A DNA stretch of 32,884 bases from Flavobacteriales bacterium (lineage in GTDB: Bacteria; Bacteroidota; Bacteroidia; Flavobacteriales_D; Sanyastnellaceae), in contig JADFAK010000054.1 in NCBI GenBank assembly GCA_015665315.1, positions 1 to 32,884 on the forward strand, in the 5' to 3' direction. The position numbers were made by a program, and so were the translations under genes. This document shows positions 1,111 to 31,722 of the stretch, piece after piece. Position 1 is the first letter of the stretch; every line of letters begins with the position of its first letter. A model generated the notes under the pieces. That model saw only the letters and a program-made list of their open reading frames with translations. It ran no database searches and had not been told where the DNA came from.

Positions 1111-4100
1111 CTATTGAACCACTTGCAGTTGGAAAACTGCTTGGCCGGCATCAGAATGCAGGTGTACAAAATATGCGCCAGCAGCTAGGCCATCTGCTGA
1201 TACAGTAAGTTTATCACCTTGTAGATTATTCAATTGCTCTTGTCTTACCACTCGACCATTGCTCGTGTAGATCTGCAATGAAAGTGACTGAGGCAATTGA
1301 TCCATGAATATCTGGAATTCGCTGTTGCTGCGAACTGGATTCGGATAGACAGATAGGAGTGGCAGATTTCCTGCTTCCTCTTCTACTCCAACCGACATCA
1401 AGTTAATGCTGAAGTGATCAGCAGCAACCATCTCCAATTGCTCATTGCCTACGATATCTGTCAAACCTAAAAACTCAACATCAATATCTTCCAAGTTTTC
1501 TTCGCTCGCCTCAACGTCGTATTTCGCGACAAAAGTTGTGCTATTGATCCATCCAGACTCACCACCGTTGTAGGTCAATGAATTGGCTTCCGGATCTTCT
1601 ACAGGAAAGTCAATCGTTGGATCAATATCTTGATCCATATTCTCATCAAAAATCGCGATCAACGAGAATGTTGCTGTACCGATATCTCCTTGATCAACCA
1701 CATAGGTATTGGCCGACAAGAGGTAGATCGCAGGATTCTTCGTGTCAATGTCCAATTGGTCGACACTCACATACATCATCTGCTCATTTCCAACGGCATC
1801 TTGTGCCATTGAAATCTGCAAATCAACTGCAGTCAAATCTTCGTTGGCATCATTCAAGTCGAATGCTGCTATAAAGTTCATATCATCCATCCAGCTACTT
1901 GCGCCTTCATTGAAAGACAATGAATTCGAAGCGTCTTCATCTGGAAACGAAAGTGTAGGAACTTGATCTACATTCATGGCCTCGCTAAAAGTCACGGTAA
2001 AATGGAATACATCTGATCCCACTTCCGAATCTGAAAGCATCGTGGCATCTGTTGCAGAAGCTGTACCCATTGGATTCTCGTTGTCTACAGAGAACAAGGC
2101 ATCTTCAACATGAATGATCTGCACGTTTCCGTCCATGTCGGCTGCATCTTTCACTTGTACATCAATTCCAAGAGCCGTCTCATTACCATCGGTTACATCG
2201 TATTGAATGTTTACGATCGTATCATTCAACCAAGCGATATTGTTCAATTGAAGTGATGCACTTACATCGTTCAAGATGAATTGTACGTTTGGCGATGAAC
2301 CAGTGTCCATAGGCTTATCGTACTCAATGGTCATCGTCATCATCATGCCGTTATCCGCATCGCTCACGACATCAATGTCTGTACTGATATTCTCCACACG
2401 AGGATTAGCAGCTTCCATGCAAGCCATTGAGAAGTTGAAGGCATTTGGCCCAATGATCTCACCAATCTTTCTTCCTGGGATATCATCTGCTGGAGGGTGA
2501 ATTCCACCCCAAATTCTCGACAGACTGCATTGGTCAGAAGCATCTCTATAGGTTGCCCATTGCAATTCACAGTTAACACTAGGGCCTTCTTCAAAAACCA
2601 AGAACTCGTTCTGCATCGCATCAAAAACTCCCATTCCACCAGGGAAGAATTCATCTCCGGTCATCAACGTCATAACCTCAGCAGCAGCTCTAGAGAAAGT
2701 AGAGTGTCCAGAGACATATCCTGCAAAGGGAGGAGTCACAAAGGTTGGTCGCTGATATGGCCACCAATTTCCAGCAAGGATCCAATCCACACCCGCTTCA
2801 TCAACTTCTTCATCAACAATATAGTCAGGACCTTTCCAAGCCTTGATTTTCATTTCGCCAACAAATTCATCGTTTGGTCCAGCCAAAGGATCGCCAGCTT
2901 CAACTTGCTCAATACGTCCTGGAACGATAGGCATACCAGCTGGGTGATAGTTTACTCCGTCGGGATCCGAGCTTTGACCTTTTTCGGCCATGTAACGAAT
3001 CGCAGAAACAGGACGAATGTAATCGTACCAACCTTTAACTCCCCATGCGCTTACGGCACAATCGTGCATGGCTCCACCCATAATGAGGTAAGACTTCACG
3101 TCCCACTCCAAATTACTGAGTACTTCGCCAGTACCTTCCCATTGATGTGAAAAGTCTGGTTGATCTGAAACGTAGTTCAACAAGGTAAACCAGTGTCCCG
3201 GAGGTGTTTCAGAATCTGGACCATCGGCCCAAAATTCGGCCAAAATTCGACCGTAGTCACCACGTGGGATCACGTTCGGCTCATACGGCTGTCCAGTTGC
3301 TGGGTTCTCATCCCAGCCTTGACCAATATCACCACCTTCCATCCAATCGTAGAAAGCAGGGTATTCATCAAAAGTATCTGGGAAGGAAGAAGATGGAATA
3401 TTACCAATTGCTCCTGGGCCAATATCAATCATGACACCGTCCGATGGATCCAAATGAGACGACCAAGTGGCAGTCATCAAGAAATTCCACTTGTACAAGT
3501 CTTCAAGACCCGTCTGCGCAGTTGTATCAATATACGGAGGCTCACCTGGATCGTGGTACACAATGTATTGCTCCCCTTCGCGGTAGAAAAACGACTTGTC
3601 CAAATCAGTAAGGGCAAAAGGAACAACATTTCCCCACTCTGGTCCTAAGAAGTCAGGAATCTCGCTAAGCTCGTTTCCCGCTTGATCGACAAAAGTCGTA
3701 ATGTTCAATTGCTGCCAACGATTCGGATCCTGGATATCGGGATTACCAAAGTTGTCCATGATCAACCACGGATTGATCGTGAGGTAATATTCATTCTCAT
3801 AATTGTTCTCTTCATTGGCGCCATCATCAAGACCAAATTCGATCATGTGCATAGCGATGTAATTCCCAAGTGCCGCTGGAGAACCATCTGAATAATCGGT
3901 CGACACGAAATCCATGTCGTAGCCCAGATCTTCCATCAGATCATCGAATCTACCTTGACTCGCTTCAGAACCAGGTGAATTGGAGAAGCGATGTGAAAGC
4001 AGACGATAAGCCGCATAGCTCAAAGCCTCTTCTTGCGATAAAATGGCTGCCTCATCATCTGGCACAACTATACCGTCAAATGGTACGTCGTAACCATCGA

Positions 4101-4359
4101 GGGAACCTCCAAGAAAAAACGGCTTCGCATCTTCGTCGAAGGCAGCCCATGCATCATACATAACTGTGGACACATGCCATAAATTTCTAGAATGCACGGT
4201 CGGACGCGCATAATCATCTCGAATCGCTTCGAGCATTACTTCAGACCATTCTCGTGCAACCGAGTGATCTTGGGCGCATGCTGGCATCGTGTAGCCGAGC
4301 AAACCTGCTAATAGCACAAGCCATCGCCCCTTAGAGGATAAAATGTCTAATATTTTCAT
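1111..4359 (-). CDS. Secreted vanadium-dependent haloperoxidase/PAP2-like protein with T9SS sorting domain
   Basis: 1082 residues. A signal peptide covers about residues 1-29 (ACA|Q). The N-terminal helical region with ARPTVHSRNLWHVSTVMYDA (51-70) is typical of bacterial vanadium-haloperoxidase-like proteins. The oxyanion-binding motifs of the PAP2/haloperoxidase fold are all visible: Lys442 and Arg449-Pro450 (KGWYDYIRP), SGH at 550-552 and R-x5-H at 615-621 (RIWGGIH), with His552 and His621 as the expected catalytic and vanadate/phosphate-bonding histidines. Residues about 652-985 form three repeats of about 112 residues, probably beta-sandwich domains. A T9SS type A sorting domain starting near 'LSVYPNP' ends the protein. 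The gene has its own promoter and terminator, so it appears monocistronic. Whether it is a haloperoxidase or a phosphatase cannot be decided from motifs; substrate and halide are unknown. Confidence 0.85.
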   Translation of the reverse strand: MKILDILSSKGRWLVLLAGLLGYTMPACAQDHSVAREWSEVMLEAIRDDYARPTVHSRNLWHVSTVMYDAWAAFDEDAKPFFLGGSLDGYDVPFDGIVVPDDEAAILSQEEALSYAAYRLLSHRFSNSPGSEASQGRFDDLMEDLGYDMDFVSTDYSDGSPAALGNYIAMHMIEFGLDDGANEENNYENEYYLTINPWLIMDNFGNPDIQDPNRWQQLNITTFVDQAGNELSEIPDFLGPEWGNVVPFALTDLDKSFFYREGEQYIVYHDPGEPPYIDTTAQTGLEDLYKWNFLMTATWSSHLDPSDGVMIDIGPGAIGNIPSSSFPDTFDEYPAFYDWMEGGDIGQGWDENPATGQPYEPNVIPRGDYGRILAEFWADGPDSETPPGHWFTLLNYVSDQPDFSHQWEGTGEVLSNLEWDVKSYLIMGGAMHDCAVSAWGVKGWYDYIRPVSAIRYMAEKGQSSDPDGVNYHPAGMPIVPGRIEQVEAGDPLAGPNDEFVGEMKIKAWKGPDYIVDEEVDEAGVDWILAGNWWPYQRPTFVTPPFAGYVSGHSTFSRAAAEVMTLMTGDEFFPGGMGVFDAMQNEFLVFEEGPSVNCELQWATYRDASDQCSLSRIWGGIHPPADDIPGRKIGEIIGPNAFNFSMACMEAANPRVENISTDIDVVSDADNGMMMTMTIEYDKPMDTGSSPNVQFILNDVSASLQLNNIAWLNDTIVNIQYDVTDGNETALGIDVQVKDAADMDGNVQIIHVEDALFSVDNENPMGTASATDATMLSDSEVGSDVFHFTVTFSEAMNVDQVPTLSFPDEDASNSLSFNEGASSWMDDMNFIAAFDLNDANEDLTAVDLQISMAQDAVGNEQMMYVSVDQLDIDTKNPAIYLLSANTYVVDQGDIGTATFSLIAIFDENMDQDIDPTIDFPVEDPEANSLTYNGGESGWINSTTFVAKYDVEASEENLEDIDVEFLGLTDIVGNEQLEMVAADHFSINLMSVGVEEEAGNLPLLSVYPNPVRSNSEFQIFMDQLPQSLSLQIYTSNGRVVRQEQLNNLQGDKLTVSADGLAAGAYFVHLHSDAGQAVFQLQVVQ

Positions 4360-4566: not shown

Positions 4567-5727
4567 TTATTTTTCAATGACTATTCGGCTACTTTTTCCA
4601 AATTCATCGATAGCCAAATACAAGCCACTTGGTAAAAGTCCTAGATTGAGATTATTCGCTCCTTGCTTGACATTACGGGCGTATACACATTTGCCTTGTG
4701 CGCTATAAAAAAACAACTTGGTATCGTAAACGCTCTCATACTGAACGACATCGCGAGCTGGGTTTGGAAAGAAATTTTTTATTTCGTGAATATTCGTTTC
4801 TTCAATGCCGACGTCCAGATCAATGACATTTATCATATTACTATGTTCCAATTCGCCGTTGAGCATGTCGTAGTAGTCCACCTGAATTGCTTGGGCAAAA
4901 TCCCCCTGTGGCTGGCAAATAAGCGAGAAGCGCTCGCCAGGATAGATTTCAAGCTCAGTCGCTGCAAACGCTTGTGGCAGGGCGCGACCGTCGGACATAT
5001 AAACTACCGCGTTGAGCTCGGAAGGAAAGTGCATGACGATTTTGGAATAGGCCATACTTCCCACTCGCAAGGCTATCGAATCGCCTGCCTGGGCCATAAT
5101 TGCCTGTGAATTATCTGCCGCTATCATCTCGCCTTGGAGTCCGTTCACCATGAAATAATCTGGATCGATATCATGGAAAGGATAGGCATCGGTAGGCACG
5201 TCGTTGACCGCTATTTCTAAGTCGGAAAACAAGTAGGTATGTTCGTCGCTGTAGCCTGGTCCGTTGCTAAACAACACAGGTAGCTCCTCATGCACAACAA
5301 TCATCCCGTACATGCCCATGGTGAGGTGTAAAGTAGTTGTTACGTGGCAATGGTACAAATAGGTCCCCGGCTCAGTCGCCGTGAAGCTGTAGGTTCCCGA
5401 TTGATTCTGAAAAACCTGAAATGAGGTGAGCGGCACCCCGTCATTGGCCTGGTTGACATCCAGTCCATGCAAGTGAATCGTGTGTGCTTCGGCCGAGACA
5501 TTGGTAAAATTAAAGTTCACTTCGTCTCCCACCGTGAGCTCCAAAAGTGGCGCTGGTAAGACGAGTCCGCCCCCCGGTCCTTCGTAGCCATAGCCCCAAA
5601 AATTGGTTGTACTTCCATCTTCAAGTAACAGCTCCCCATCCATGCCCGAGATCATGTTAATTTCAATCTGGCATAAAGCCAAATGAGGAAGCGCAAGACA
5701 TATTAAAATTGCTAATTTCTTCATCAT
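4567..5727 (-). CDS. Two-domain multicopper-oxidase-like protein with T9SS sorting domain (type-1 copper subunit)
   Basis: 386 residues with a signal peptide (cleavage near LALCQ, residue 19-20). The first cupredoxin domain (about 30-150) has a complete copper signature: H82-TI-H85-L-H87-G, then H126-C127-H128, H134 and M139 in HCHVTTTLHLTMGM, giving type-1 copper ligands and two HxH motifs for a trinuclear centre. The second cupredoxin-like domain (about 160-305) has lost the HxH motifs. A T9SS sorting domain begins near FFPNP (319). Its start overlaps the stop of the upstream gene by 4 nt (ATGA), so the two are translationally coupled. The family covers laccase-type oxidases, metal oxidases and nitrite reductases. 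With only half the trinuclear ligands it may work with the upstream protein. A homo-oligomeric electron-transfer role is the alternative. Confidence 0.85.
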   Translation of the reverse strand: MMKKLAILICLALPHLALCQIEINMISGMDGELLLEDGSTTNFWGYGYEGPGGGLVLPAPLLELTVGDEVNFNFTNVSAEAHTIHLHGLDVNQANDGVPLTSFQVFQNQSGTYSFTATEPGTYLYHCHVTTTLHLTMGMYGMIVVHEELPVLFSNGPGYSDEHTYLFSDLEIAVNDVPTDAYPFHDIDPDYFMVNGLQGEMIAADNSQAIMAQAGDSIALRVGSMAYSKIVMHFPSELNAVVYMSDGRALPQAFAATELEIYPGERFSLICQPQGDFAQAIQVDYYDMLNGELEHSNMINVIDLDVGIEETNIHEIKNFFPNPARDVVQYESVYDTKLFFYSAQGKCVYARNVKQGANNLNLGLLPSGLYLAIDEFGKSSRIVIEK

Positions 5728-6572
5728 TCTGCTATGCTTAGGTAGGTTAACATTCCACCAGGGTAAAAGCCCACATTGGTAACGGCGATTAGGTTGTGGT
5801 CATGCACAGGGTAATCCCCTGGTTTATCGGGAACGAGTAAAACAGTCATGGCCTCTCCCTTTTTAATTGGAATTGAGTCTTTGATCCAACCCACGCGATC
5901 TCCAAGGACTTTGGCATCAAGAATTTCAACGTGGTATCCGTGGAAGTGAAAGATATGATCCATCAATCCTGAGTTGACGATGGAAATGATTATTTGATCG
6001 CCTACCGCACCTGTAATATAGGTGTCCTCATCATCCAATGTTTCCGGATAAAAGGCGCCGTTGATCAAAAACATTTCTGGCTGGTAATCGCTTGGAATCA
6101 TGTCGGTGACACCTTGCTGTAGATCATGGGAAAGTTGCGTTTGCAAGTCGAACAAGTTCCAATGAAACTTCGGGTTCCCGGTATAACCCACGAGAATCGA
6201 ACCAGAGGCTCCTAACCATTTGCCTTGTGCTAAATCAGAATAAAAGCGATGCGTGCCGCTCTCCAAAAAGCTTATCGAGAATTCTTCGAAGGTGCTCGGT
6301 GCAATGGTGTTGTCTGACTCCAAAAGTCCGTCGATAGTAAACGTATGCGGGACGGTATCGTTGTTGTGAATGATGAATTGCACTTCGTCGCCGACTTCAA
6401 GCTCAACGATCGCATTTTTCATTTCAAAGGTGGGCGAAAAATTAAAGGAAGCAGCTGCAATGTCTTGGGTATAAATGGTAGGAAGCGCGGCGTTGATATA
6501 CAAGGTAACCTCCTGTGCATGAGCCGACAATGCTAAGACTAGCAAACACCAAATTGAGAAAAACTGTTTCAT
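5724..6572 (-). CDS. Two-domain cupredoxin/multicopper-oxidase-like protein lacking the type-1 cysteine
   Basis: 282 residues with a signal peptide ending at AHA|Q (about 19). The first cupredoxin domain (about 22-130) retains only scattered histidines (H69, H76) and no copper motif. The second (about 160-282) has H206-IF-H209-F-H211-G and H257-D258-H259 followed by GFYPGGM. The position normally occupied by the type-1 copper Cys in HCH is Asp, and the later His is missing, so this domain resembles the non-type-1 half of a laccase. There is no T9SS tail, so it is expected to be periplasmic unless carried out with its partner. It overlaps the downstream T9SS oxidase gene by 4 nt and lies 54 nt after the response-regulator gene. 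Family membership is clear; enzymatic activity on its own is doubtful. Confidence 0.8.
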   Translation of the reverse strand: MKQFFSIWCLLVLALSAHAQEVTLYINAALPTIYTQDIAAASFNFSPTFEMKNAIVELEVGDEVQFIIHNNDTVPHTFTIDGLLESDNTIAPSTFEEFSISFLESGTHRFYSDLAQGKWLGASGSILVGYTGNPKFHWNLFDLQTQLSHDLQQGVTDMIPSDYQPEMFLINGAFYPETLDDEDTYITGAVGDQIIISIVNSGLMDHIFHFHGYHVEILDAKVLGDRVGWIKDSIPIKKGEAMTVLLVPDKPGDYPVHDHNLIAVTNVGFYPGGMLTYLSIAE

Positions 6573-6626: not shown

Positions 6627-7274
6627 CTACTGCGAAATTTTGGCCAATCCGCTCTCGATGGCAAACCTGACAAGTGCTACTGAATTTGGCTGTTCCAGTT
6701 TGGACAGAATGTTTTTACGGTGAAACTTGATGGTATCGATGCTGAGATGGAGTGCTTCGGCGATTTCGTTGGAGGACCGACCTTGAACGATGAGTTGCAA
6801 AACCTCGTTTTCGCGTGGGGTGAGCATATCGGTCTTTCGGGTAACCTGCACGTTTTTGGCCAGTACCGCGTTGATTTCGGAGCTAATAAAAATATCGCCA
6901 TTGGCCACTCTGCGAATGGCTTTCGTGAGCTCGTCGCCGCTTGAATTCTTCAACAAATACGCATCTGCACCAGCGTTGAGGGCACTTCGAATCGTTTGAT
7001 AGTCACCCAGCATGGTGAGGGCGACACATTTCATCGTGGGGAATTCTTTTTTGCACATGGCGACCAATTCCACCCCATCCTTGCCGGGCATGCTGATATC
7101 AGTAATCAAGACATCGGGCTTGTACACTGGAATCGCACGAATCGCCTCATCGGCAGAAGTCGCCGTACCCACAACCTCAACATGCTCATGTAACTTGAGC
7201 AAGAGGTCTAGTCCGTCCAAAAACATCTGGTGGTCATCCACCAAGAAGACTTTCCATATTTGACTAGTGCTCAT
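6627..7274 (-). CDS. NarL/LuxR-family DNA-binding response regulator
   Basis: 215 residues. The receiver domain occupies about residues 7-125, with the acidic pair Asp13-Asp14, phospho-acceptor Asp59 (LITDISMPG), Thr87 and Lys109 (LLKN), all the residues needed for phosphorylation and switching. A LuxR-type helix-turn-helix follows at about 150-203, beginning LTPRENEVLQLI and including the recognition helix around SIDTIKFHRKNI. The start overlaps the stop of the kinase gene by 4 nt, so kinase and regulator form a cognate pair. The next gene downstream, 54 nt away, is the first multicopper-oxidase-like gene. That makes the copper-oxidase pair a likely co-transcribed or target unit, though no operator could be assigned with certainty. 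Confidence 0.92.
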   Translation of the reverse strand: MSTSQIWKVFLVDDHQMFLDGLDLLLKLHEHVEVVGTATSADEAIRAIPVYKPDVLITDISMPGKDGVELVAMCKKEFPTMKCVALTMLGDYQTIRSALNAGADAYLLKNSSGDELTKAIRRVANGDIFISSEINAVLAKNVQVTRKTDMLTPRENEVLQLIVQGRSSNEIAEALHLSIDTIKFHRKNILSKLEQPNSVALVRFAIESGLAKISQ

Positions 7275-10200
7275 GATTCTTTATTGGTTAGTGGGATTAA
7301 AATGCGAATGGCCATGCCTTGTTTCTTGGGTATCCATTGTGCGCTGGCTTGAATGACTAATAGTCGGTTTTCAATATTTCTCAAACCATAGCCCTCGCTT
7401 TTGGTCGTAGCTATATCCAGACTGTTCTCACCGTTGTCGGAATATTCGATAAGCATGTGGTCTTTGGCCTGTCGAACGACGATATCGATGGAAGAGGCAT
7501 TGGCGTGTTTGATCGTATTGTTGATCAATTCTTGGATAACCCGATAAAGTGTGAGCTCGACACGAGCCGAAAGTTCGAAATTGGATTCATCAGACACCAA
7601 ATGCGCCTGTACATCGGCGGCATGATTCAATCTTTCGGTGAGGTTTTCAAGGGCTTTGATCAACCCGAATTTATGCACAGCTTCAGGCGAAAGATCGTGT
7701 AGCATATTCCTCAAATCTGCCACTCCCTCATCGAGCAATTCCTGCGCTTTTTGACTAATTCCCTGGCTTTGGCTTTTGGGCGAACTCAGTTTTTCGAGGG
7801 AATTCAGGTACAACTTGAGCACACTGAGTCTGGTCCCCACCTCATCGTGCAACTCGCTGGCCAATCGCTTGCGCTCGCTTTCTTGTCCGTTCATCTCTCC
7901 TTCCAAGCGGAAGCGTTCAAGTTTTCGCCATTCTTGTCGGCGCCAGAAATAAAACGCCGTTCCAAAGATGGCCATACAAAGAATAGTGAGCGGCCAAAAC
8001 AGGGGTCGTTCCCAAAATGGCGGTCTGATTGAAAACCGAAACTCGGTAGGCGTCTCATTCCACAAGCCATGATTATTTGCAGCTTTCACTTGGAAGCAAT
8101 AGTCTCCTCCTTTTAAGTCGGTAAATCGGATATGATTTTGATCTCCGCAATAGACCCAATCTGTTTCGAGCCCGAGCAAGCGATAGGCAAATTGATTTTT
8201 TTCCGGATTGGTAAAGTTTAACGCTGCAAAACTAAAAGAGATAGTATTATCGGTGTATTCAAGGGATAAATCTGCTTGACTTGCTGGTGCAAGAGAACCA
8301 ATGTTTTTAATTGAAAGCTCAGTGATTTTCACAGGAGGAAGGGCTTGATTCATGAGCAAGAGTTCCGGTTTGAAGTGGATTAGAAAGCCATCTCCACCTG
8401 CATAGGCGTGACCTGAATCATCAATAAATACATCTCCAGACACACCGGAAGTGGGAAATCCATCAGCCGGACCAAATGACTGCCACGTATCATCCTCCAC
8501 ATTGTAGGTCGCCAGTCCGCCTTCAGCAACAACCCACAAATTGCCCTCTTGATCAATCGAAATGCCTTCCATCACTTGATGCGGCGACTTGATATAATTG
8601 AAACGGGGTGGATCGTTGAGATTTATCTCTACAAGTCCTTGACCACGAGTGGAGGCAAAGAAGTGATCTTTCTCATACTCAACTACATCAACTCCGATAA
8701 TATCTGACGGAATCAATGATTTCCATGTATCCGACGCCACCAGCGAACAGTAGCCTGTCACGTCTTTGTGGTAAGTAGAGTATTTGTCCGAAGTATATTT
8801 CCACATCTCAATGGCTTGTTCAGGATATTCGATTTGAACGTCAATGGAAATTCCAAATTCTGAGAAAAGCCACAGCCGGCCCGAGCTATCAAAAAAGCTA
8901 TTGGATATTAAACTTGCACTTTTTTCTTCATCAGCTGCCGTGCGCTCATGGAGGATCGACACAAAACCAACCTTCGTTTGTTGGTGAAAAATAGACAAGC
9001 CATATCCATAAGCTGCAAAGGTAAAAACGGGTTCCCCTGCCATTTGGCCTTCAGAGATATCTACAATGCGCGAAGCTTCAATCTGGAAAAAGTCAAATCC
9101 AATTTCGCTCGTATCGCTATGATTCCGAAAGGAGGCAAACTCATCAAGATCTAAAGTCGAGGCATCTGCCAAATAGCCTGAGTTATTTGTTCCCAAGATC
9201 AGGCCCTGCGCACTTGAGTTAAGGAGCGAATGCACCTGCAAAGCGCGCTGAGTTCCAAAACGGATAGGGTGCTTGGAAAGTCTGTTATTTTCCTCGAAAG
9301 TCCACAAACCACTGGTTGTTCCAACAAACAGCTTTTCGTCGGCAACACCAAATCCCGTAACTCGCTCCGAGGCATCCACTTGGCCCAGCGACTCCTCAAG
9401 CATGAGTACATCGAACTGAAAGCTTTTGGGATCGTAAATGCTCAATCCACGGTCGGTACCCACCCACATTCGATCTTCCGAATCGACATAAAGGCAATTG
9501 ATCGTTCTGGATGCAATCGACCCGAAGATGTGATAATTAGGCTCGCAATCAACCATTTGCCGTGAGGCTGGATTAAAAATATGCAGACCGCTATACCTCG
9601 ACCCAATCCATATTTCATCCTTGTACTCGACCATGTCTTTCACCTCGTCTGAAGAAAAGGAAATGTCCTTCCCATCTATCGTTGTTACGAGCGTGGGTAT
9701 GCTATCCGAAAGCGCTTGTGAGTACAGCCCGTTGTCCCACCCTCCAAACCATAAATTGGACTTCTTGTCTTCGCAAATGGCCACAACAGTGTGCGCTGGA
9801 TACGGAAAATACGTTGGTATGTTTAGGTCCGACCAAGAAGAACCATTCCACTTTAACAAGCCCCTTGCAATTGTCCCTGTGTACAAATTGGAATCTGAAG
9901 CCAAGAAGAGATCGAAAAAGGATCTAGAAAATTTTGAAGTTGAATCGGTGCTAAAATAGCAATCACGGCCGTTCAATGGAATGACATAGCAATCTCTACG
10001 ATGCAAAGAAACCCATAGCGAACTATCTCCATCGTAGGCCAGTGAAAGGAGGTTGTTTGATCCAATTCCCATTTGTTCGTGATTTGGATGCCTTCGAAAT
10101 GCGTCATTCACGGGTGAATAGACACTCAATCCCCCGTCCTCAGTGGCAACGAGCATTTCCCCTTTTTGCCCAGCTCGAATGGCAGAAATCTGATTTCCTT

Positions 10201-10438
10201 TTAAGTCGGCCGGAGAACTCGACGCGTAGTAATGCTTAAACTGTCTTCCATCGAAACGATTAAGCCCAAAATCGGTCCCTATCCATATAAACCCATCACC
10301 ATCTTGGAAAATGCAATTCACTTCATTGTTCGACAAGCCGTGGGCCGTGGTGTAGTTCGAAAACTGCGGCGACTGTCCATAGCTATTCATGCAGAATAGA
10401 TAGAAAAACAACATATAAACGAAGCGCGTCTTGAACAT
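7271..10438 (-). CDS. Two-component sensor histidine kinase with propeller and Y_Y_Y sensor region
   Basis: I take the ATG at 10438 because it opens a good signal peptide (MFKTRFVYMLFF to SYGQ). An in-frame extension to 10570 lacks one and would cross the palindrome at 10525. The 1055-residue protein has tandem beta-propeller repeats of the 'two-component regulator propeller' type over about residues 25-740 (e.g. GFIWIGTDFGLNRFDG, RMWVGTDRGLSIYD). A Y_Y_Y domain (about 745-810, LLGLETDW) and one membrane helix (about 815-832) follow. The HisKA_3 dimerisation domain has phospho-acceptor His864 in ELHDEVG, and the HATPase domain has the N box ELINNTIKHA and the G box GYGLRNIENR. It should sense a periplasmic ligand and phosphorylate the adjacent LuxR-type regulator. 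The ligand is not indicated by sequence; the copper-oxidase genes downstream are the best clue. Confidence 0.92.
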   Translation of the reverse strand: MFKTRFVYMLFFYLFCMNSYGQSPQFSNYTTAHGLSNNEVNCIFQDGDGFIWIGTDFGLNRFDGRQFKHYYASSSPADLKGNQISAIRAGQKGEMLVATEDGGLSVYSPVNDAFRRHPNHEQMGIGSNNLLSLAYDGDSSLWVSLHRRDCYVIPLNGRDCYFSTDSTSKFSRSFFDLFLASDSNLYTGTIARGLLKWNGSSWSDLNIPTYFPYPAHTVVAICEDKKSNLWFGGWDNGLYSQALSDSIPTLVTTIDGKDISFSSDEVKDMVEYKDEIWIGSRYSGLHIFNPASRQMVDCEPNYHIFGSIASRTINCLYVDSEDRMWVGTDRGLSIYDPKSFQFDVLMLEESLGQVDASERVTGFGVADEKLFVGTTSGLWTFEENNRLSKHPIRFGTQRALQVHSLLNSSAQGLILGTNNSGYLADASTLDLDEFASFRNHSDTSEIGFDFFQIEASRIVDISEGQMAGEPVFTFAAYGYGLSIFHQQTKVGFVSILHERTAADEEKSASLISNSFFDSSGRLWLFSEFGISIDVQIEYPEQAIEMWKYTSDKYSTYHKDVTGYCSLVASDTWKSLIPSDIIGVDVVEYEKDHFFASTRGQGLVEINLNDPPRFNYIKSPHQVMEGISIDQEGNLWVVAEGGLATYNVEDDTWQSFGPADGFPTSGVSGDVFIDDSGHAYAGGDGFLIHFKPELLLMNQALPPVKITELSIKNIGSLAPASQADLSLEYTDNTISFSFAALNFTNPEKNQFAYRLLGLETDWVYCGDQNHIRFTDLKGGDYCFQVKAANNHGLWNETPTEFRFSIRPPFWERPLFWPLTILCMAIFGTAFYFWRRQEWRKLERFRLEGEMNGQESERKRLASELHDEVGTRLSVLKLYLNSLEKLSSPKSQSQGISQKAQELLDEGVADLRNMLHDLSPEAVHKFGLIKALENLTERLNHAADVQAHLVSDESNFELSARVELTLYRVIQELINNTIKHANASSIDIVVRQAKDHMLIEYSDNGENSLDIATTKSEGYGLRNIENRLLVIQASAQWIPKKQGMAIRILIPLTNKES

Positions 10439-10521
10439 ATAATTTGGTCGGCTCGATAAAGATAATGCAATCCCATGCCGCTTGAAAGGGTGGAGGTCAG
10501 TGAAGTGAAAAAAAACAACAC

Positions 10522-10552
10522 AATCTACCCTATGGGGTAGGTTGAATCTACC
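10522..10552. promoter_or_regulatory. Palindrome and direct repeat in the divergent kinase/beta-helix intergenic region
   Basis: The 181-bp gap between the kinase start (10438, minus) and the beta-helix gene start (10620, plus) holds CTACCC-TATG-GGGTAG (10525-10540). The half-site AATCTACC (10522-10529) recurs in direct orientation at 10545-10552, 23 bp on. Symmetric half-sites at about two helical turns are what a dimeric LuxR-type regulator would bind, so this is a candidate operator. A hairpin in the beta-helix gene's leader is the alternative. Confidence 0.4.
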
Positions 10553-10619
10553 TAAAAGGGTGTTCTCCAATTGGAAATTCTGGAGGAAATTTGGTCTTCA
10601 AAACCAAAATCATTCACTT

Positions 10620-15849: not shown

Positions 15850-15929
15850 GACTTGAGCCTTCCTTAAGGTTTATGATTTTTTAGCGCATAGACCTGATGT
15901 GTGTCAGTCGACCTCATGAATATTTCGCT

Positions 15930-15938
15930 TACATTTGC
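15930..15938 (+). promoter_or_regulatory. Candidate -7 element of the metal-efflux operon promoter
   Basis: TACATTTGC matches the Bacteroidota -7 consensus TAnnTTTG(C). It sits 14 bp before the ATG at 15952, giving a very short leader. No convincing TTTG box was found 17-23 bp upstream, so the call rests on the -7 element and the position. Confidence 0.4.
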
Positions 15939-15951
15939 GTTGAAGTTATCC

Positions 15952-16371
15952 ATGAAAAAGATTATTGCCATATTATTAGCCAGCTTGATCCTCATCTCAA
16001 ATGTGGGTTTTGCCGTTAGCAACCACTATTGCGGTGGAATGTTGGCAAGTAGCTCGTTGACCATTGGTCATGTGGCCGACGGATGTGGCATGGAGAAAGC
16101 TCCAAATTCAGAAAAATGTGCACAAAGCAGTACTACTCTTTCGCAAAGAAAATGCTGTGAGAATGTTTTCCAAGATTTGGAAGTAGAAAACGACTTCTCA
16201 AAAAGTGCTGATACTCAGGTGAGTTTAGACCCTGTTTTCGCGGTCGCATTTGTATTTGCCCTTGTGGCTGAGTATTTTAACAATGACGCTAGAACAGTAA
16301 CCCTTAGTGCATATATCCCTCCCGATCTACGAGGTGATACACATATTGAAAATCAAGTTTTTCGTCTCTGA
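15952..16371 (+). CDS. HYC_CC_PP family protein, first gene of the metal-efflux operon
   Basis: 139 residues from the ATG at 15952 (MKKIIAILLASLILISNVGFA), chosen because it gives a clean signal peptide; upstream in-frame ATGs at 15901 and 15916 precede the likely promoter. The three family hallmarks are visible: HYC at residues 25-27 (NHYCGG), CC at 68-69 (RKCCEN) and PP at 123-124 (YIPPDL), with a second hydrophobic stretch at about 92-107. Further Cys and His residues (C45, H40, C56) could bind a soft metal. Such small exported proteins regularly precede CusA-type genes in Bacteroidota; their function is not established, and a periplasmic metal chaperone or sensor role is an inference. The cusA gene begins 75 nt downstream. 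Confidence 0.8.
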   Translation: MKKIIAILLASLILISNVGFAVSNHYCGGMLASSSLTIGHVADGCGMEKAPNSEKCAQSSTTLSQRKCCENVFQDLEVENDFSKSADTQVSLDPVFAVAFVFALVAEYFNNDARTVTLSAYIPPDLRGDTHIENQVFRL

Positions 16372-16446
16372 TACAGCGTGATCGCAAATTTCTTGTGAAG
16401 TAATTCGCACGAGGAAATTTTTGTTTCACTTTTCATCTGTATCGAA

Positions 16447-19400
16447 ATGTTACGAAGTTTTATCAAGTATTTTCTGGAAAACAAGCTGGTTACCTTGCTT
16501 TTGCTTGGCTCTCTTGTCATGTGGGGAGTTTCCGTTGCCCCCTTCAATTGGAATGACTCCCTAATCCCTCGCAATCCTGTCCCAGTCGACGCTATTCCAG
16601 ATATCGGAGAGAATCAACAGATTGTCCACACCGAGTGGATTGGTCGGTCGCCCCAGGATATTGAAGACCAAATCACCTACCCTCTCACCACTGCTCTTCT
16701 GGGAATCCCCGGGGTAAAAACCATTCGTAGTAATTCCATTTTCGGACTCAGTAGCATCTACCTCATCTTTGAAGACGATGTGGAGTTTTACTGGAGTCGC
16801 ACTCGAATCTTAGAGAAACTAAACTCCCTCCCAAGTCAACTACTTCCAGACGATGTTTCGCCTTCTCTAGGGCCCGACGCAACTGCCTTGGGACAAGTAT
16901 TCTGGTATACGCTGGAAGGAAGAGATCAAGACGGAAATCCCGCAGGTGGTTGGGATCCGCACGAATTGCGGACGATACAAGATTTCCAGATCGGATACGC
17001 CTTAACCTCAGTAAAAGGAGTTTCCGAAGTTGGAACGATTGGAGGATATGTCAAGGAATATCAAATAGACATTGATCCCAATGCCATGAAGGCGCACAAC
17101 GTGACTGTAGCGCAAATCATGTCGGCCGTCAAAAAAAGCAATCTGGACATTGGAGCGCGTACCATCGAGTTCAATAAAGTCGAGTACCTAATAAGAGGTA
17201 TAGGCTACATCAAATCAATCAGCGATCTTGAAGAAAGCGTTGTTGTATCCAATGAAAATGTGCCCATTCGACTCAAAGATGTGGCCAAGATTTCATTTGG
17301 CCCAGCTCCTCGACGTGGCGGGCTGGACAAAGGCGGTGCTGAAGCTGTTGGCGGGGTTGTTGTGGCAAGGTATGGTGCCAACCCGCTTCAGGTTATCGAC
17401 CGCGTCAAAGAAAAAATTGGCGAAATCGACGCTGGTCTGCCGTCCAAAACCCTTACCGATGGCACTATCTCGAAAGTGACTGTGATCCCGTTTTACGATC
17501 GGACAGGACTCATTAAAGAAACGATTGGCACCCTCGAAGAAGCATTAACTCTTGAGATGCTCATCGCGCTGTTGGTGGTAATTGTACTAGTTCTCAATCT
17601 GCGTGCATCCATTATGATCACCAGTCTGCTCCCCCTTGGCGTGCTCATCGCCTTCATCATGATGCGACAGTTTGGTGTCGATGCCAACATCGTTGCGCTT
17701 TCAGGAATTGCGATTGCCATTGGAGTGATGGTAGACGTTGGAATTGTCTTTACCGAAAACATTATTCAGCACATGGACTTGCCTGAAAATGTCGGAAAGA
17801 GAGGGAAAGAACTTCTCGAGGTAATCTACCGAGGAACTTCAGAAGTGGCAACGGCAGTAATGACTGCTTTGTTCACCACAATAGTCAGCTTCCTGCCCAT
17901 CTTTGCCATGCAAGGAGCTGAAGGCAAACTATTCACTCCGCTGGCTCTAACCAAGACTTTTGCCATGTTGGCAGCCCTGTTCATCGGACTGGTTTTTATC
18001 CCAACATTTGCGCATATTATTTTCTCCATCCGACTTGACAAAGGGAAAATGAGCAAGGTCTGGAATGGCCTACTCATTGCGTTAGGCTTGGTCTTTCTAG
18101 TCATTTCGAATAGCTGGCTGCCCTTGGCTTTGATCCTATTTGGCATAAACAACCTACTCGAATACAAATGGTCTGAGGCAAAGAAACACTACGTCAACTA
18201 CATCAATATTTTCATCTCCGTGTATGTCGTTGTTTATTTCATCGCCGAAGTATGGCGTCCACTGGGAGTGCAAAATAGTTTCCTTGAAAACTGGCTCTTT
18301 GTCGCCATCATTATCGGCCTTATACTAGGTGCTCTTTTGCTTATCGTCAAATACTACTCCAACCTGCTTACTTGGTGCATGAACAACAAAGGGAAGTTTC
18401 TAATAGCACCGGCTGTAGTGATTTTACTTGGCATACTATCTTGGCAGGGCTTCGAACGTGTTTTCGCATTCATGCCTGATGCGGCCAAGGAAAATTCGGC
18501 ATGGACTTCACTTTCTGAAACCTTTCCTGGGTTAGGAAAGGAGTTTATGCCTTCCCTAAATGAGGGTTCTTTCTTGTTGATGCCCACTACGATGCCCCAC
18601 TCGGGGGTCGAAGAAAATGTGGATGTTATTCGTAAACTAGACCGTCAGCTCAACGCCATTCCTGAAGTTGATTTAACCGTGGGTAAGTGGGGCCGTGTCA
18701 ACTCAGCTCTTGATCCCGCTCCTATTTCTATGTACGAGAACATCATTAACTATCTGCCAGAATTCAAGGTGAATGAGGATGGTCATAAGATGCGTTTCAA
18801 GGTTGATGACAACGACGCATTTGTTGTTAGAGACAGCAGCACTTACGCCTACGGATCCGACGCTTTTCGGAGTATCGCGACCGCAGACTTGATCGAAGAC
18901 GAAGACGGTGAATATTTCCGTCAGTGGCGACAGCATATCTCTTCACCCGACGACATTTGGGATGAGATTTTAGATCACTCCAAAATTCCTGGATTGACAT
19001 CAGCTCCCAAACTGCAGCCCATCGAAACGCGCTTGGTCATGCTTGCAACCGGTATGAGAGCACCCATGGGAATCAAAGTATTTGGACCCGACTTGCCGAC
19101 TATAGAGAAAGTTGGGTACGACATTGAAAACTTCTTGAAACAAGTGCCCAGCGTCGAAGCCAATGCTGTCTTCGCCGACCGTGTAGTTGGGAAGCCATAT
19201 TTGGAAATCAATATCCAACGAGAAGCAATTGCTAGATACGGTCTTACAGTGCAAGACATGCAAGTCGTTCTTGGAACCGCAGTTGGTGGTATGCCTCTTA
19301 CAAATAGTGTCGAAGGTCGAGAAAGGTTTCCAATTCGCGTAAGGTATGCCCGAGAATTGAGGGACAATCCGGAAGACCTGAAAAATGTCCTCATCCCAAC

Positions 19401-20241
19401 TCCTGAAGGGGTTCAGGTTCCTTTGGGTGAGTTGGCCGACATCGAATATGTCAGAGGTCCGCAAGTAATCAAGAGTGAAGATACCTTCCTAGTGAGCTAT
19501 GTCATCTTCGACAAGAAGGATGGATTTGCCGAAGTAGATGTGGTAGAAGATGCGCAAGCCTTCCTGAGGCAAAAAATAGAATCGGGTGAATTCATCTTGC
19601 CAGCGGGAGTGAGTTATCGCTTCACAGGCAATTATGAAAATCAGGTGCGAGCTACCAAACGATTGATGCTCGTTGTTCCTATTTCCTTGTTGCTGATCTT
19701 CCTAATTCTCTACTTCCAATTTAGGTCTGTGGCAACCACTATGATGATTTTTAGCGGACTCGTGGTCGCGTTCTCTGGAGGGTTTATTATTCTGTGGCTC
19801 TATGGAATGCCTGGATTTCTTGACTTTTCAATCGGTGGAATCAACTTGAGGGATCTTTTCCAAGTCCACACCGTCAATCTGAGTGTCGCCGTTTGGGTCG
19901 GATTCATCGCCCTCTTTGGCGTGGCGACAGACGATGGTGTGCTCATGGGAACCTACCTCACGCAGCTTTTCGATCAAGACAAACCAGATACAGTCGAAAA
20001 AGTCAAGGCCACGGTATTACTGGCTGCGTCTAAACGTGTACGTCCCGCCGTCCTCACAACAGCCACGACGATCATAGCCCTGATTCCAGTCCTCACCTCG
20101 CAAGGCAAAGGTTCCGACATCATGGGCCCCATGGCTATTCCCCTTTTTGGCGGAATGCTCATCGAAGTTATGACCATGTTTATTGTCCCAGTGCTCTACT
20201 GCCTATATATGGAACGAAAGATTAACAGACTAAATCGATAG
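16447..20241 (+). CDS. cusA: CusA/CzcA-family heavy-metal efflux RND permease
   Basis: A 1264-residue inner-membrane proton/metal antiporter of the HME-RND family. The N-terminus has the first membrane helix (about 12-30) and the porter-domain opening VDAIPDIGENQQIV. The family-specific TM4 charge pair is present as Asp430 and Glu437 (AIGVMVDVGIVFTEN). The periplasmic motif FMPSLNEGSFLLMPTTMP (700-717) carries several methionines, as in Cu/Ag exporters. The late TM segment has GVATDDGV (Asp1162-Asp1163). It is about 200 residues longer than Escherichia coli CusA. The extra length is a hydrophobic block at about 528-638, with some four added helices between TM6 and TM7, and an acidic periplasmic insert at about 761-850. 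Related Bacteroidota proteins share this long form. Copper/silver rather than Co/Zn/Cd is favoured by the methionines and the neighbours but is not proven. Confidence 0.93.
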   Translation: MLRSFIKYFLENKLVTLLLLGSLVMWGVSVAPFNWNDSLIPRNPVPVDAIPDIGENQQIVHTEWIGRSPQDIEDQITYPLTTALLGIPGVKTIRSNSIFGLSSIYLIFEDDVEFYWSRTRILEKLNSLPSQLLPDDVSPSLGPDATALGQVFWYTLEGRDQDGNPAGGWDPHELRTIQDFQIGYALTSVKGVSEVGTIGGYVKEYQIDIDPNAMKAHNVTVAQIMSAVKKSNLDIGARTIEFNKVEYLIRGIGYIKSISDLEESVVVSNENVPIRLKDVAKISFGPAPRRGGLDKGGAEAVGGVVVARYGANPLQVIDRVKEKIGEIDAGLPSKTLTDGTISKVTVIPFYDRTGLIKETIGTLEEALTLEMLIALLVVIVLVLNLRASIMITSLLPLGVLIAFIMMRQFGVDANIVALSGIAIAIGVMVDVGIVFTENIIQHMDLPENVGKRGKELLEVIYRGTSEVATAVMTALFTTIVSFLPIFAMQGAEGKLFTPLALTKTFAMLAALFIGLVFIPTFAHIIFSIRLDKGKMSKVWNGLLIALGLVFLVISNSWLPLALILFGINNLLEYKWSEAKKHYVNYINIFISVYVVVYFIAEVWRPLGVQNSFLENWLFVAIIIGLILGALLLIVKYYSNLLTWCMNNKGKFLIAPAVVILLGILSWQGFERVFAFMPDAAKENSAWTSLSETFPGLGKEFMPSLNEGSFLLMPTTMPHSGVEENVDVIRKLDRQLNAIPEVDLTVGKWGRVNSALDPAPISMYENIINYLPEFKVNEDGHKMRFKVDDNDAFVVRDSSTYAYGSDAFRSIATADLIEDEDGEYFRQWRQHISSPDDIWDEILDHSKIPGLTSAPKLQPIETRLVMLATGMRAPMGIKVFGPDLPTIEKVGYDIENFLKQVPSVEANAVFADRVVGKPYLEINIQREAIARYGLTVQDMQVVLGTAVGGMPLTNSVEGRERFPIRVRYARELRDNPEDLKNVLIPTPEGVQVPLGELADIEYVRGPQVIKSEDTFLVSYVIFDKKDGFAEVDVVEDAQAFLRQKIESGEFILPAGVSYRFTGNYENQVRATKRLMLVVPISLLLIFLILYFQFRSVATTMMIFSGLVVAFSGGFIILWLYGMPGFLDFSIGGINLRDLFQVHTVNLSVAVWVGFIALFGVATDDGVLMGTYLTQLFDQDKPDTVEKVKATVLLAASKRVRPAVLTTATTIIALIPVLTSQGKGSDIMGPMAIPLFGGMLIEVMTMFIVPVLYCLYMERKINRLNR

Positions 20242-20244
20242 AAT

Positions 20245-21489
20245 ATGAGACCACTATTTCAACTTGCGATTGTTGTTCTTTCACTACTTACTTCAGTCGC
20301 GCATGCACAAAGTGAATTATCGCACTACCTCCAGATAGGCGCCGAGAACAACCCTGGGCTCATGGCAAAATTTACGACTTACTACGCTGCGCTCGAGAAA
20401 GTTCCTCAAGTGGGTGCATTGCCCGATCCATCTCTGTCTTTTGGCTACTTCATTTCGCCTATAGAGACGCGTGTGGGGCCACAAATTGCAAAAGTTGGCT
20501 TCAGCCAGATGCTGCCGTGGTTTGGTACGCTCCATGCCCGAGAAGATGTTGCCATGGAAATGGCCAAAGCCAAATTCGAATCGTTTGAAGAGGCCAAGTC
20601 GATGCTGTTCTTTGATATCAAGTCAACCTACTACGATATCTATTTCGTGCAAAAAGCGATCGACATTACCCATGAAAACCTTCAGATTCTACGCACTCTT
20701 CAAGAACTGTCGATTATCAAAATTGAAACGGGAAAGGCTTCTGTTGTTGACGAACTTAGAGTGGAGATGGAGATCAATGAGTTGGTCAACCAACTAGCCA
20801 ATCTCGAAGATTCAAAAGCTGCTATGGAAGTGAAGTTCCGACAACTCTTGAACAGCTCCGATGAGCTGAAAATAGCCGTACCCAATTCGTTAGAAGAGGA
20901 AAGTCTAACGATGACGAAGCAAGAACTTTTGGACAGCATCTCTGTTCAAAATCATCTCATTAAGCAGCTTAATCATAAAATCCTGTCGTGGCAAAATCAA
21001 GAAGTCGCCGCGCAGAAAATGGGCATGCCGCAGTTATCAGTTGGCTTTGACTACAGCATCATTGGAAAGAGCGACAATCCAAATTTAGGCAGAGAGAACG
21101 GACGAGATGCGGTTCTCTTCCCCAAAATTGGCATTTCAATTCCACTTTACAGGAAGAAATATACCTCACTAGTGAAGGAGTCGGCATTGAACCTAGAAGC
21201 CACACAATGGGAAAAGGAAGAGAAGGAAAACCAACTTACATCTCTGTTTGAATTCGGATACAAGGACTACCTCGATGCCACTCGACGAATCGAACTGTTT
21301 GAGACACAATCGCTGTTGGCCGAAAAGTCTCTAAATATCCTGATTACATCTTACTCGACCGACGGAGAAAATTTTGAAGAAGTCCTCAGGATCGAACGAA
21401 AAGTATTGCAATACGCCTTGGAAGGTGACAAAGCAAGGGCCGACAAAAGTGCTGCCATCGCATTTATCTCATTCCTCATGGGGAACTAA
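20245..21489 (+). CDS. TolC-family outer-membrane channel of the metal-efflux system
   Basis: 414 residues with a signal peptide ending at VAHA|Q (about 21). It has the OEP/TolC architecture: two long alpha-helical hairpins rich in Leu/Glu/Lys (about 95-215 and 305-410). Between them lie beta-barrel strands such as GALPDPSLSFGYF (about 57-69) and MPQLSVGFDYSIIG (about 258-271), the latter close to the usual 'P.l....y' strand of this family. It starts 3 nt after the cusA stop codon and would form the outer-membrane exit duct for the CusA-CusB pump. No lipobox is visible, so unlike E. coli CusC it is not expected to be lipid-anchored. Family assignment is firm; the partner assignment comes from operon position. 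Confidence 0.9.
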   Translation: MRPLFQLAIVVLSLLTSVAHAQSELSHYLQIGAENNPGLMAKFTTYYAALEKVPQVGALPDPSLSFGYFISPIETRVGPQIAKVGFSQMLPWFGTLHAREDVAMEMAKAKFESFEEAKSMLFFDIKSTYYDIYFVQKAIDITHENLQILRTLQELSIIKIETGKASVVDELRVEMEINELVNQLANLEDSKAAMEVKFRQLLNSSDELKIAVPNSLEEESLTMTKQELLDSISVQNHLIKQLNHKILSWQNQEVAAQKMGMPQLSVGFDYSIIGKSDNPNLGRENGRDAVLFPKIGISIPLYRKKYTSLVKESALNLEATQWEKEEKENQLTSLFEFGYKDYLDATRRIELFETQSLLAEKSLNILITSYSTDGENFEEVLRIERKVLQYALEGDKARADKSAAIAFISFLMGN

Positions 21490-21499
21490 ATCAACGACA

Positions 21500-30642: not shown

Positions 30643-31722
30643 CTATTCAAAAGGGTTCCCAAACTCTGGATTCGTTAGGAAGATTGAATCTGTCATGGTG
30701 TGGAGGAAGGCAATTATTTTATCCTTTTCATCTGGCGTGAGTCGCACTCCGCCTTGATGGGCGAATTCCATTTTTGAATCGACATTGTAACCTTGGTTTA
30801 CACCTTCACTATAAAAATCAAGGACTTCGCGTAAAGTATTGAACCTTCCATCGTGCATGTAAGGAGCGGTCACGGCAACGTTTCTGAGCGATGGGATTTT
30901 AAACTTTCCCATTTCACTAAGCCGACCAGTCACACCGGCCAATCCTAGGTCCAAATAATCTTCTGGTCCTCGCGCTGCATCCAGCCCATTGTTGCTGAAT
31001 TTGGCCGTTGTTCCTAGGGCGTCGGCATCTGTGGAATGGCAGTGCAGACAATCACCTTTGGTTTGGTCGTTGATCAGGACAAAGCCTTCAAATTCTTCTG
31101 GCGTGAGGTAGGTTTCACCGCGTTGCATTTGGTCGTATTTGGAATTATTGGAGATTAGCGTTCTCTCAAATTGGGCGATGGCCTTTCCGATCAATACGCT
31201 ATCAATCTTCACATGACCAAAAGCCGCCTCAAACATGGGACTATAAAGCTCACTGCTCGCTATACGTTCGGTCGCTGTTGCCCAATCGAGGTTCATTTCA
31301 TCGTGAGCACGTACTGGATGAAAAACTTGCTCTTCCAAACTGGCTGCCGCACCATCCCAAAATAGAGCAGGATACCAGGCGAGGTTGAACAAAGGCATCG
31401 TATTCCGCTCCATGGCCTCTCCATTGATTCCCATGCTAAATCTTTTTGGAGAATCTGAAAATGCAACTTCTTGCCGGTGGCAGCTTGAGCACGAAAAAGA
31501 ATAATCGGCACTGAGGATTGTGTCGTAAAACAGGAACCTACCCAATTCGGCGCCTTCTATCGTGGGCGGATTGTGCGTTGTGGGCATAGGAGGAAAGTGC
31601 AATAATTTGGGAAGCTGATATGGAGTTGCATCTCCAGTAACCTCGAATCTCAAAGTCAGCACGGCTACTACTGCCCCTAGCACGATCAATATGCTCGTTC
31701 TGAAGATCTCCATATTCGTCAA
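30643..31722 (-). CDS. Di-haem cytochrome c peroxidase (MauG/CcpA family)
   Basis: 359 residues. An N-terminal hydrophobic segment (about 8-24) exports it to or anchors it at the periplasm. Two haem-binding motifs are present: C78-SS-C81-H82 and C225-LH-C228-H229. The conserved closing region FKIPSLRNVAVTAPYMHDGR (274-293) includes the Met289-His290 pair; Met289 is the expected axial ligand of the high-potential haem. The enzyme would reduce H2O2 to water with electrons from small cytochromes. The ATG at 31722 overlaps the stop codon of the preceding T9SS protein gene by 4 nt (an alternative ATG at 31713 does not), so the two are likely translated together. The fairly short N-terminal part lacks the third haem of some family members. 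Confidence 0.93.
   Translation of the reverse strand: MTNMEIFRTSILIVLGAVVAVLTLRFEVTGDATPYQLPKLLHFPPMPTTHNPPTIEGAELGRFLFYDTILSADYSFSCSSCHRQEVAFSDSPKRFSMGINGEAMERNTMPLFNLAWYPALFWDGAAASLEEQVFHPVRAHDEMNLDWATATERIASSELYSPMFEAAFGHVKIDSVLIGKAIAQFERTLISNNSKYDQMQRGETYLTPEEFEGFVLINDQTKGDCLHCHSTDADALGTTAKFSNNGLDAARGPEDYLDLGLAGVTGRLSEMGKFKIPSLRNVAVTAPYMHDGRFNTLREVLDFYSEGVNQGYNVDSKMEFAHQGGVRLTPDEKDKIIAFLHTMTDSIFLTNPEFGNPFE

Follow-up and report, generated by a model that had tools for sequence, protein, structure and literature searches.

How two neighbouring bacterial proteins, each with only half of the histidines of a trinuclear copper cluster (TNC), could serve as an oxidase is the question raised by a pair of genes in a 32,884-nucleotide stretch of DNA from a Flavobacteriales bacterium, referred to here as the window. 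The proteins, which we call alpha (upstream) and beta (downstream), have two cupredoxin domains each (D1 and D2). An earlier note on this DNA had proposed that they form an obligate hetero-oligomer of the multicopper oxidase kind, with the copper cluster at the subunit interface. Judging from the sequences of this pair and of its relatives, the two genes very probably encode a working enzyme built from two different, individually incomplete proteins. We consider it likely that this enzyme is a heteromeric oxidase resembling the type C two-domain oxidases, in which the TNC would form in trans, with alpha D2 and beta D1 each contributing half of its ligands.

Two adjacent genes divide the copper ligands

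On the translations, the motifs lie in the domains to which the earlier note had assigned them. Those of alpha (HIFHFHG and HDH) are confined to D2, which has no type-1 cysteine, and those of beta (HTIHLHG, HCH, His134 and Met139) are confined to D1; in the proteins of the window, alpha D1 and beta D2 contain no HxH motif. The split of four HxH motifs two and two across proteins whose genes overlap by 4 nt was likewise found at the expected positions (Table 1), and the ATGA overlap suggests that translation of the two genes may be coupled. Pfam matches above cut-off were obtained for alpha with Cupredoxin_1 and Cu-oxidase_2, and for the first domain of beta with Cu-oxidase_3 and also with Cu-oxidase_2 and Copper-bind. 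The T9SS tail that had been noticed on beta scored 25.6 bits with TIGR04183, for which the cut-off is 23, and 26.0 bits in Pfam PF18962, just below the cut-off of 27.

Table 1. Positions of the alpha and beta genes, their domains and motifs, and some neighbouring genes in the window
Feature	Position	Strand	Remarks
alpha subunit gene, 282 aa	5724..6572	-	TNC ligands confined to the second of its two cupredoxin domains
alpha signal peptide, residues 1-20	6513..6572	-	putative, by eye from sequence
alpha D1, cupredoxin without copper ligand set	6183..6512	-	Pfam Cupredoxin_1, residues 54-116, 35.2 bits
alpha D2, cupredoxin with TNC ligands, without type-1 Cys	5727..6095	-	Cu-oxidase_2, residues 176-261, E 1.2e-12
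HIFHFHG, alpha 206-212	5937..5957	-	H209 and H211, presumed TNC ligands
HDH, alpha 257-259	5796..5804	-	presumed TNC ligands; Asp replaces type-1 Cys
alpha stop/beta start, 4-nt overlap (ATGA)	5724..5727	.	shared by 37 of the 77 named loci examined
beta subunit gene, 386 aa	4567..5727	-	D1 with TNC half-site and type-1 site; D2 blank; T9SS tail
beta signal peptide, residues 1-20	5668..5727	-	putative, by eye from sequence
beta D1, TNC half-site and type-1 copper site	5284..5667	-	Cu-oxidase_3, E 6.7e-19
HTIHLHG, beta 82-88	5464..5484	-	H82 presumed type-1 ligand; H85 and H87 presumed TNC ligands
HCHVTTTLHLTMGM, beta 126-139	5311..5352	-	H126 and H128 TNC; C127, H134 and M139 type 1; presumed by homology
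beta D2, cupredoxin without copper ligand set	4813..5175	-	aligned to 3g5w D2; SDGR and PGER conserved
T9SS type A sorting tail of beta	4570..4770	-	TIGR04183, residues 320-372
HYC_CC_PP family protein	15901-16371
CusA/CzcA-type exporter	16447-20241
outer-membrane channel	20245-21489
CusB-like adaptor with heavy-metal-binding domain	21374-23293
MbnH-like di-heme enzyme	30643-31722		250 bits, below family cut-off 363

Kinship with type C two-domain oxidases

Among PDB structures, beta was matched best by 3g5w (1.4e-20) and 2zwn (1.1e-19), both spanning its two domains. The same structures were matched by alpha alone (3g5w 7.6e-6, 2zwn 1.9e-7) and by an alpha profile of 13 rows (2e-18 and 1e-16). 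We take 2zwn, a two-domain laccase from a metagenome, and 3g5w, a blue copper oxidase from Nitrosomonas, to be of type C. The motifs of alpha D2 and of beta D1 coincide in alignment with those of these two-domain oxidases: in the printed alignments HDH of alpha falls on HDH of 2zwn D2, and HTIHLHG and HCHV of beta fall on HTIHWHG and HCHV of D1.

According to PMC13151041, type C is defined by a type-1 copper in the N-terminal domain, and PMC3192119 and PMC6854816 describe two-domain laccases as homotrimers whose active site lies where the monomers meet. Alpha and beta each consist of two cupredoxin domains. Only beta has type-1 ligands in its N-terminal domain (91 of 91 rows), alpha being without the type-1 cysteine, and neither of them has four HxH motifs in one chain, the pair together having four. 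Neither chain is itself a type C member, because neither carries the full motif set. Counted as the single assembly that they presumably form, the two would bring together eight TNC histidines and one type-1 site.

Other family models scored far lower than their cut-offs. The copper_res_A model (three-domain laccase/CueO/CopA) gave 62.2 bits for beta and 18.2 for alpha with a cut-off of 478.95, and the laccase model TIGR03389 gave 31 bits for beta with a cut-off of 558.9. The laccase-type parentage proposed earlier stands in so far as the proteins are kin of multicopper oxidases; more precisely, the parentage is that of type C two-domain oxidases, with 3g5w and 2zwn nearest. Complete two-domain oxidases, with the four motifs united in a single chain of about 425 aa, also occur unsplit in Bacteroidota (L042, L123:9512-10792 and L155) and are weaker relatives of alpha and beta; the PDB structure nearest to L042 is 2zwn (2.3e-56). 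In a Saprospirales genome, the oxidase at L123:9512-10792 follows a split pair at a distance of about 2.5 kb on its downstream side.

Since the type-1 site is complete in beta alone, the two could also be separately acting copper proteins of one pathway without a shared cluster, for example with beta as a NirK-like or cupredoxin-like carrier and alpha as a partner that binds or delivers copper. The weak matches of beta are indeed to plastocyanin-type cupredoxins and to copper nitrite reductase, but with the NCBIfam equivalog model of the latter beta reached 47.4 bits and alpha 20.2, against a cut-off of 296.3.

Conservation of the ligand division

For the scoring of ligands, two unsplit oxidases were aligned together with 93 rows of alpha and 91 of beta, from 86 and 84 distinct contigs respectively, seven contigs being counted twice. 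Contig ends deprived L127 of alpha D1 and L100 of part of beta; L101 and L151 yielded no usable beta. All four TNC histidines of alpha D2 were present in 93 of 93 rows, and beta D1 had its four TNC histidines together with both type-1 histidines, the cysteine and the methionine in 91 of 91. Alpha D1 had none of the TNC histidines in 68 rows, one in 22 and two in 3, never four (n = 93), and beta D2 had none in 85 rows and one in 6, never the set (n = 91).

Part of the sample consisted of relatives from named genomes, of which the best 80 of 137 were kept, 78 labelled Bacteroidota and two without a phylum label. These 80 loci were picked by a pattern that contains the second HxH of alpha, and therefore the conservation of that motif is circular in those loci; the first HxH of alpha and all motifs of beta lie outside the selection pattern, and their conservation is not circular.

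The complementary loss seen in the window is conserved, with the same division in the other 92 alpha and 90 beta rows. Full motif sets in close homologues, which the earlier note had named as a sign of random decay, were not found in any member of the split family among the 93 alpha and 91 beta rows. In a decay scenario alpha and beta would be two degenerate copies of a two-domain oxidase heading to become pseudogenes, as might be imagined from the lack in both chains of motifs that the unsplit relatives have, and from the ligand-less beta-like proteins of another genus described below. But which half is retained and which is lost does not vary across rows whose median identity is 37% for both chains (89 pairs), and gene order is conserved, so we regard random decay as extremely unlikely. 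The ligand-bearing domains are also the most conserved ones, with values of 0.63 for alpha D2 and 0.64 for beta D1 versus 0.44 for alpha D1 and 0.52 for beta D2.

The same rows speak against separately acting proteins. The halves of the TNC that they keep are exactly complementary, and by homology these conserved ligands would lie on the two surfaces through which neighbouring subunits of the homotrimeric type C oxidases touch. To our knowledge, half a TNC in a single chain has no use. We therefore consider separate action rather unlikely and favour a cluster shared between the two chains.

Co-occurrence and adjacency of the two genes

A survey of 35 genomes of one family, with cut-offs of 1e-20 and 1e-30, found alpha in 18 genomes, beta in the same 18, and neither in 17, a result with a probability of 2.2e-10 if the genomes were independent. 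Each gene was present in 19 copies, every one of them adjacent to its partner. Of 295 genomes surveyed across the class, 12 matched the alpha profile at 1e-8, 11 of them strongly (at least 199 bits); in the twelfth (G247) the match was a complete unsplit oxidase of 422 aa. The beta profile at 1e-15 gave matches in 45 of these 295 genomes, mostly to other oxidases. Beta matches above 260 bits were confined to the 11 genomes with strong alpha matches, which contain 13 copies of each gene, all adjacent. In the survey of 395 genomes of the phylum a strong alpha match was obtained in the source genome only, the weak alpha matches of G247 and G609 being unsplit. Homologues of one protein found widely without the other had been named beforehand as evidence against a split oxidase; no ligand-bearing alpha or beta homologue without its partner was found in the family survey of 35 genomes, nor in the class survey, where the same 11 of the 295 genomes have both.

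Of the 80 named loci, 79 have beta directly downstream of alpha; in two of them a contig end truncates it, and in one a frame slip joins it to alpha. In the remaining locus the contig stops about 70 nt past alpha. In the source genome, contigs C58 and C75 carry two further pairs of neighbouring alpha and beta genes, with 34-36% identity and the same division of motifs, and contig C23 carries one multicopper oxidase of 574 aa. A 689-aa open reading frame in L122 (G121) and L037 was considered as a natural alpha-beta fusion and rejected: it arises from a one-base slip in a G8 run near the 3' end of alpha, and in L122 the normal end of alpha lies in another frame and the signal peptide of beta lies inside the open reading frame. 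The slip is probably a sequencing or assembly error.

Alpha and beta have also diverged in parallel (r = 0.86 over 89 pairs, with a maximum of 0.13 in 1000 permutations), which is equally expected of any neighbouring genes inherited together. Co-occurrence and adjacency are compatible with any shared pathway, and in this respect with separately acting proteins as well.

A single genus includes four genomes, G194, G437, G462 and G502, that have beta-like matches but no alpha match at 1e-15, the alpha and beta surveys being presumed to come from the same draw. The proteins of G194, G437 and G502, which were read, have lost the copper ligands of D1, with the HxH gone and YHCH changed to YYSP, and the copy of G462 has two internal stops. 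A tyrosinase gene adjoins all four of these genes (L073, L159, L160 and L161, in G194, G462, G437 and G502 respectively). It is possible that the ligand-less beta-like proteins act as a silent scaffold or chaperone for the tyrosinase.

Structure models and covariation

Two alpha-beta tandems were modelled with AlphaFold using one-sided alignments, L135 with alpha rows and L111 with beta rows. The first run had a pLDDT of 80.9 and a pTM of 0.75. Its beta part (residues 290-580) superposed on 3g5w with Z 26.4 (rmsd 2.3, 251 aligned) and on 2zwn with Z 26.1, and its alpha part (residues 1-266) on 5zl1 with Z 24.9 (rmsd 2.9, 251 aligned). The whole chain superposed on ceruloplasmin chains with TM 0.65-0.69 of query length and rmsd 7.0-8.5; because either half covers at most about half of the query, the two chains must be placed roughly like adjacent units of the ceruloplasmin ring. 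The second run (pLDDT 87.1, pTM 0.57) left the chains apart, with TM 0.32-0.35 and rmsd of about 41 to ceruloplasmin, and for this reason the alpha-beta interface is a prediction and not a result. A TNC placed between D1 of one chain and D2 of its neighbour is compatible with the first model and incompatible with the second. Chains that stay apart in one of two co-folding runs would also suit proteins that act separately.

Covariation was measured as mutual information on 89 pairs, in which seven contigs are present twice. In the top 30 pairs the combination of alpha D2 with beta D1 was enriched 2.58-fold, and in the top 100 and 300 the combination of alpha D2 with beta D2 led, with 1.93 and 1.68 versus 1.06 and 1.18 for alpha D2 with beta D1. 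Few changes in the tree (81 rows) underlie the best covarying pairs. We rejected covariation as proof of a contact between alpha D2 and beta D1, since the ranking shifts with depth, the tree changes are too few, and the signal is inseparable from ancestry.

Neighbouring genes

The region of the window from 15901 to 23293 contains CusCBA-like heavy-metal efflux genes and a HYC_CC_PP protein (Table 1). A T9SS-tailed protein (31719-32636) adjoins the MbnH-like enzyme and has no match to the MbnP model. Directly downstream of beta (1111-4359) lies a T9SS-tailed protein with a domain of the vanadium haloperoxidase type (VCPO_2nd, DUF6851), and directly upstream of alpha (6627-10570) are a LuxR-type response regulator and a propeller-type sensor kinase. 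In the other loci (86 clustered), members of the MbnP family were found near the pair in 19, of the di-heme peroxidase family in 21 and of the HMA copper chaperones in 5, these family names coming from one tested member each. The neighbouring genes fit with copper handling, and a role in the oxidation of copper or phenols is suggested by them.

With such neighbours, and with ligand-less beta-like proteins beside tyrosinase genes hinting at another use, the heteromer could be a scaffold that binds or senses copper instead of an oxidase that reduces O2, the oxidase activity of the pair being itself a prediction. None of the eight TNC histidines and no member of the type-1 set varies in the scored rows, however, an invariance that a storage site would not require; we hold such a scaffold to be very improbable and an oxidase to be the better reading.

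An unassigned protein of about 230 aa that has a T9SS tail and a W..S.CD...C..GIP-like motif (L074:4244-4927, from Lishizhenia tianjinensis, and similar ones) occurs close upstream of alpha, in 44 of the 75 named loci with room for it; apart from its tail, the L074 copy matches nothing in Pfam. A relative of this third gene also adjoins three of the four beta-like genes that lack alpha. The protein was rejected as an obligate third subunit, because beside the window pair it is absent and the response regulator stands in its place.

Proposed assembly, export and reaction

We propose that alpha and beta are paralogues that arose from a duplicated type C two-domain oxidase. The two would then have undergone complementary loss, of the ligand set of D1 in alpha and of D2 in beta, while the fold of two cupredoxin domains was kept. 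Made together from overlapping genes, the chains would assemble in a type C-like manner with alpha D2 (H209, H211, H257, H259) opposite beta D1 (H85, H87, H126, H128), and two different proteins would thereby supply the eight histidines that bind the trinuclear cluster. Electrons from the substrate would be accepted singly by the type-1 copper of beta D1 (H82, C127, H134, M139) and would pass via the H-C-H segment to the cluster, which would reduce O2 to water. Both a 1:1 dimer and a three-subunit ring with one live interface fit this arrangement.

T9SS tails are present in 66 of 72 beta alignment rows and in 0 of 73 alpha alignment rows, four rows of each being tandems cut ahead of the tail, and alpha has a Sec-type signal by eye. 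Both chains are presumably exported by Sec; the T9SS tail of beta may then sort the complex to the cell surface, with alpha riding along. The export by T9SS of an untagged partner is a clear question posed by this pair.

The hetero-oligomer proposed in the earlier note thus gains support from the division of ligands, its conservation, the co-occurrence and adjacency of the genes in the surveyed genomes and the relationship to type C oxidases, while the physical complex with its stoichiometry, its loading with copper, its oxidase activity and the piggy-back export of alpha are what we infer from them. To a wider reading we give somewhat better than even chances: that the only O2-reducing centre of the pair is formed in trans, that complementary loss after duplication converted the identical interfacial sites of a symmetric type C oxidase into a single site between unlike chains, a non-covalent form of the route taken by ceruloplasmin and the laccases, and that alpha can get to the cell surface only as a passenger of beta in T9SS export.

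Comparison with known systems

The type C oxidases 2zwn and 3g5w resemble the split pair in having two cupredoxin domains per chain, type-1 ligands on D1 and TNC half-sites on D1 and D2; they are the top sequence matches of alpha and beta and the top fold match of beta. In type C, four HxH motifs stand in one chain and the cluster of the homotrimer lies between identical subunits, as PMC3192119 and PMC6854816 describe for two-domain laccases in general, whereas the motifs of the split pair are divided over two paralogous chains, each incomplete. If our reading is correct, the pair would be an oxidase that can be switched on by mixing two inert proteins.

NirK has the two-domain fold, with high fold scores, and binds copper between subunits, with a type-2 site instead of a TNC; the scores of alpha and beta are far below the NCBIfam cut-off. 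Heterodimeric fungal laccases consist of a complete laccase and a small non-laccase subunit. In the Mnx manganese oxidase, MnxG alone carries the whole TNC and the E and F subunits are accessory, whereas the TNC of the split pair would be divided. MnxEFG is called a multimeric multicopper oxidase in the title of PMC5622069, in whose text terms for copper sites were looked for and not found. The heterodimeric form, which the pair may share, is mentioned for laccases in the available parts of two reviews (PMC6854816, PMC12195979), where no divided copper cluster is described. Papers that join the terms multicopper oxidase, two-domain, heterodimer and trinuclear dealt, in the parts available, with heterodimeric laccases in general or with product dimers, and not with a divided cluster. 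We found no description of a multicopper oxidase or laccase with a divided cluster in the open-access PMC literature searched.

Ceruloplasmin has six cupredoxin domains, with a single TNC where two of them meet, and its equivalent interfaces are blank. Over its whole length the first tandem model superposed on ceruloplasmin about as well as on any structure, ceruloplasmin being one of its best matches; the second does not superpose. Ceruloplasmin is one covalent chain, whereas the split pair spreads the asymmetry over separate proteins. Homotrimeric two-domain oxidases are possible ancestors of ceruloplasmin and of the three-domain laccases, in which redundant interfacial sites would later have been lost. 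If the split pair is what we propose, a living family that divided the site between paralogues would make this ancestral step of site loss testable.
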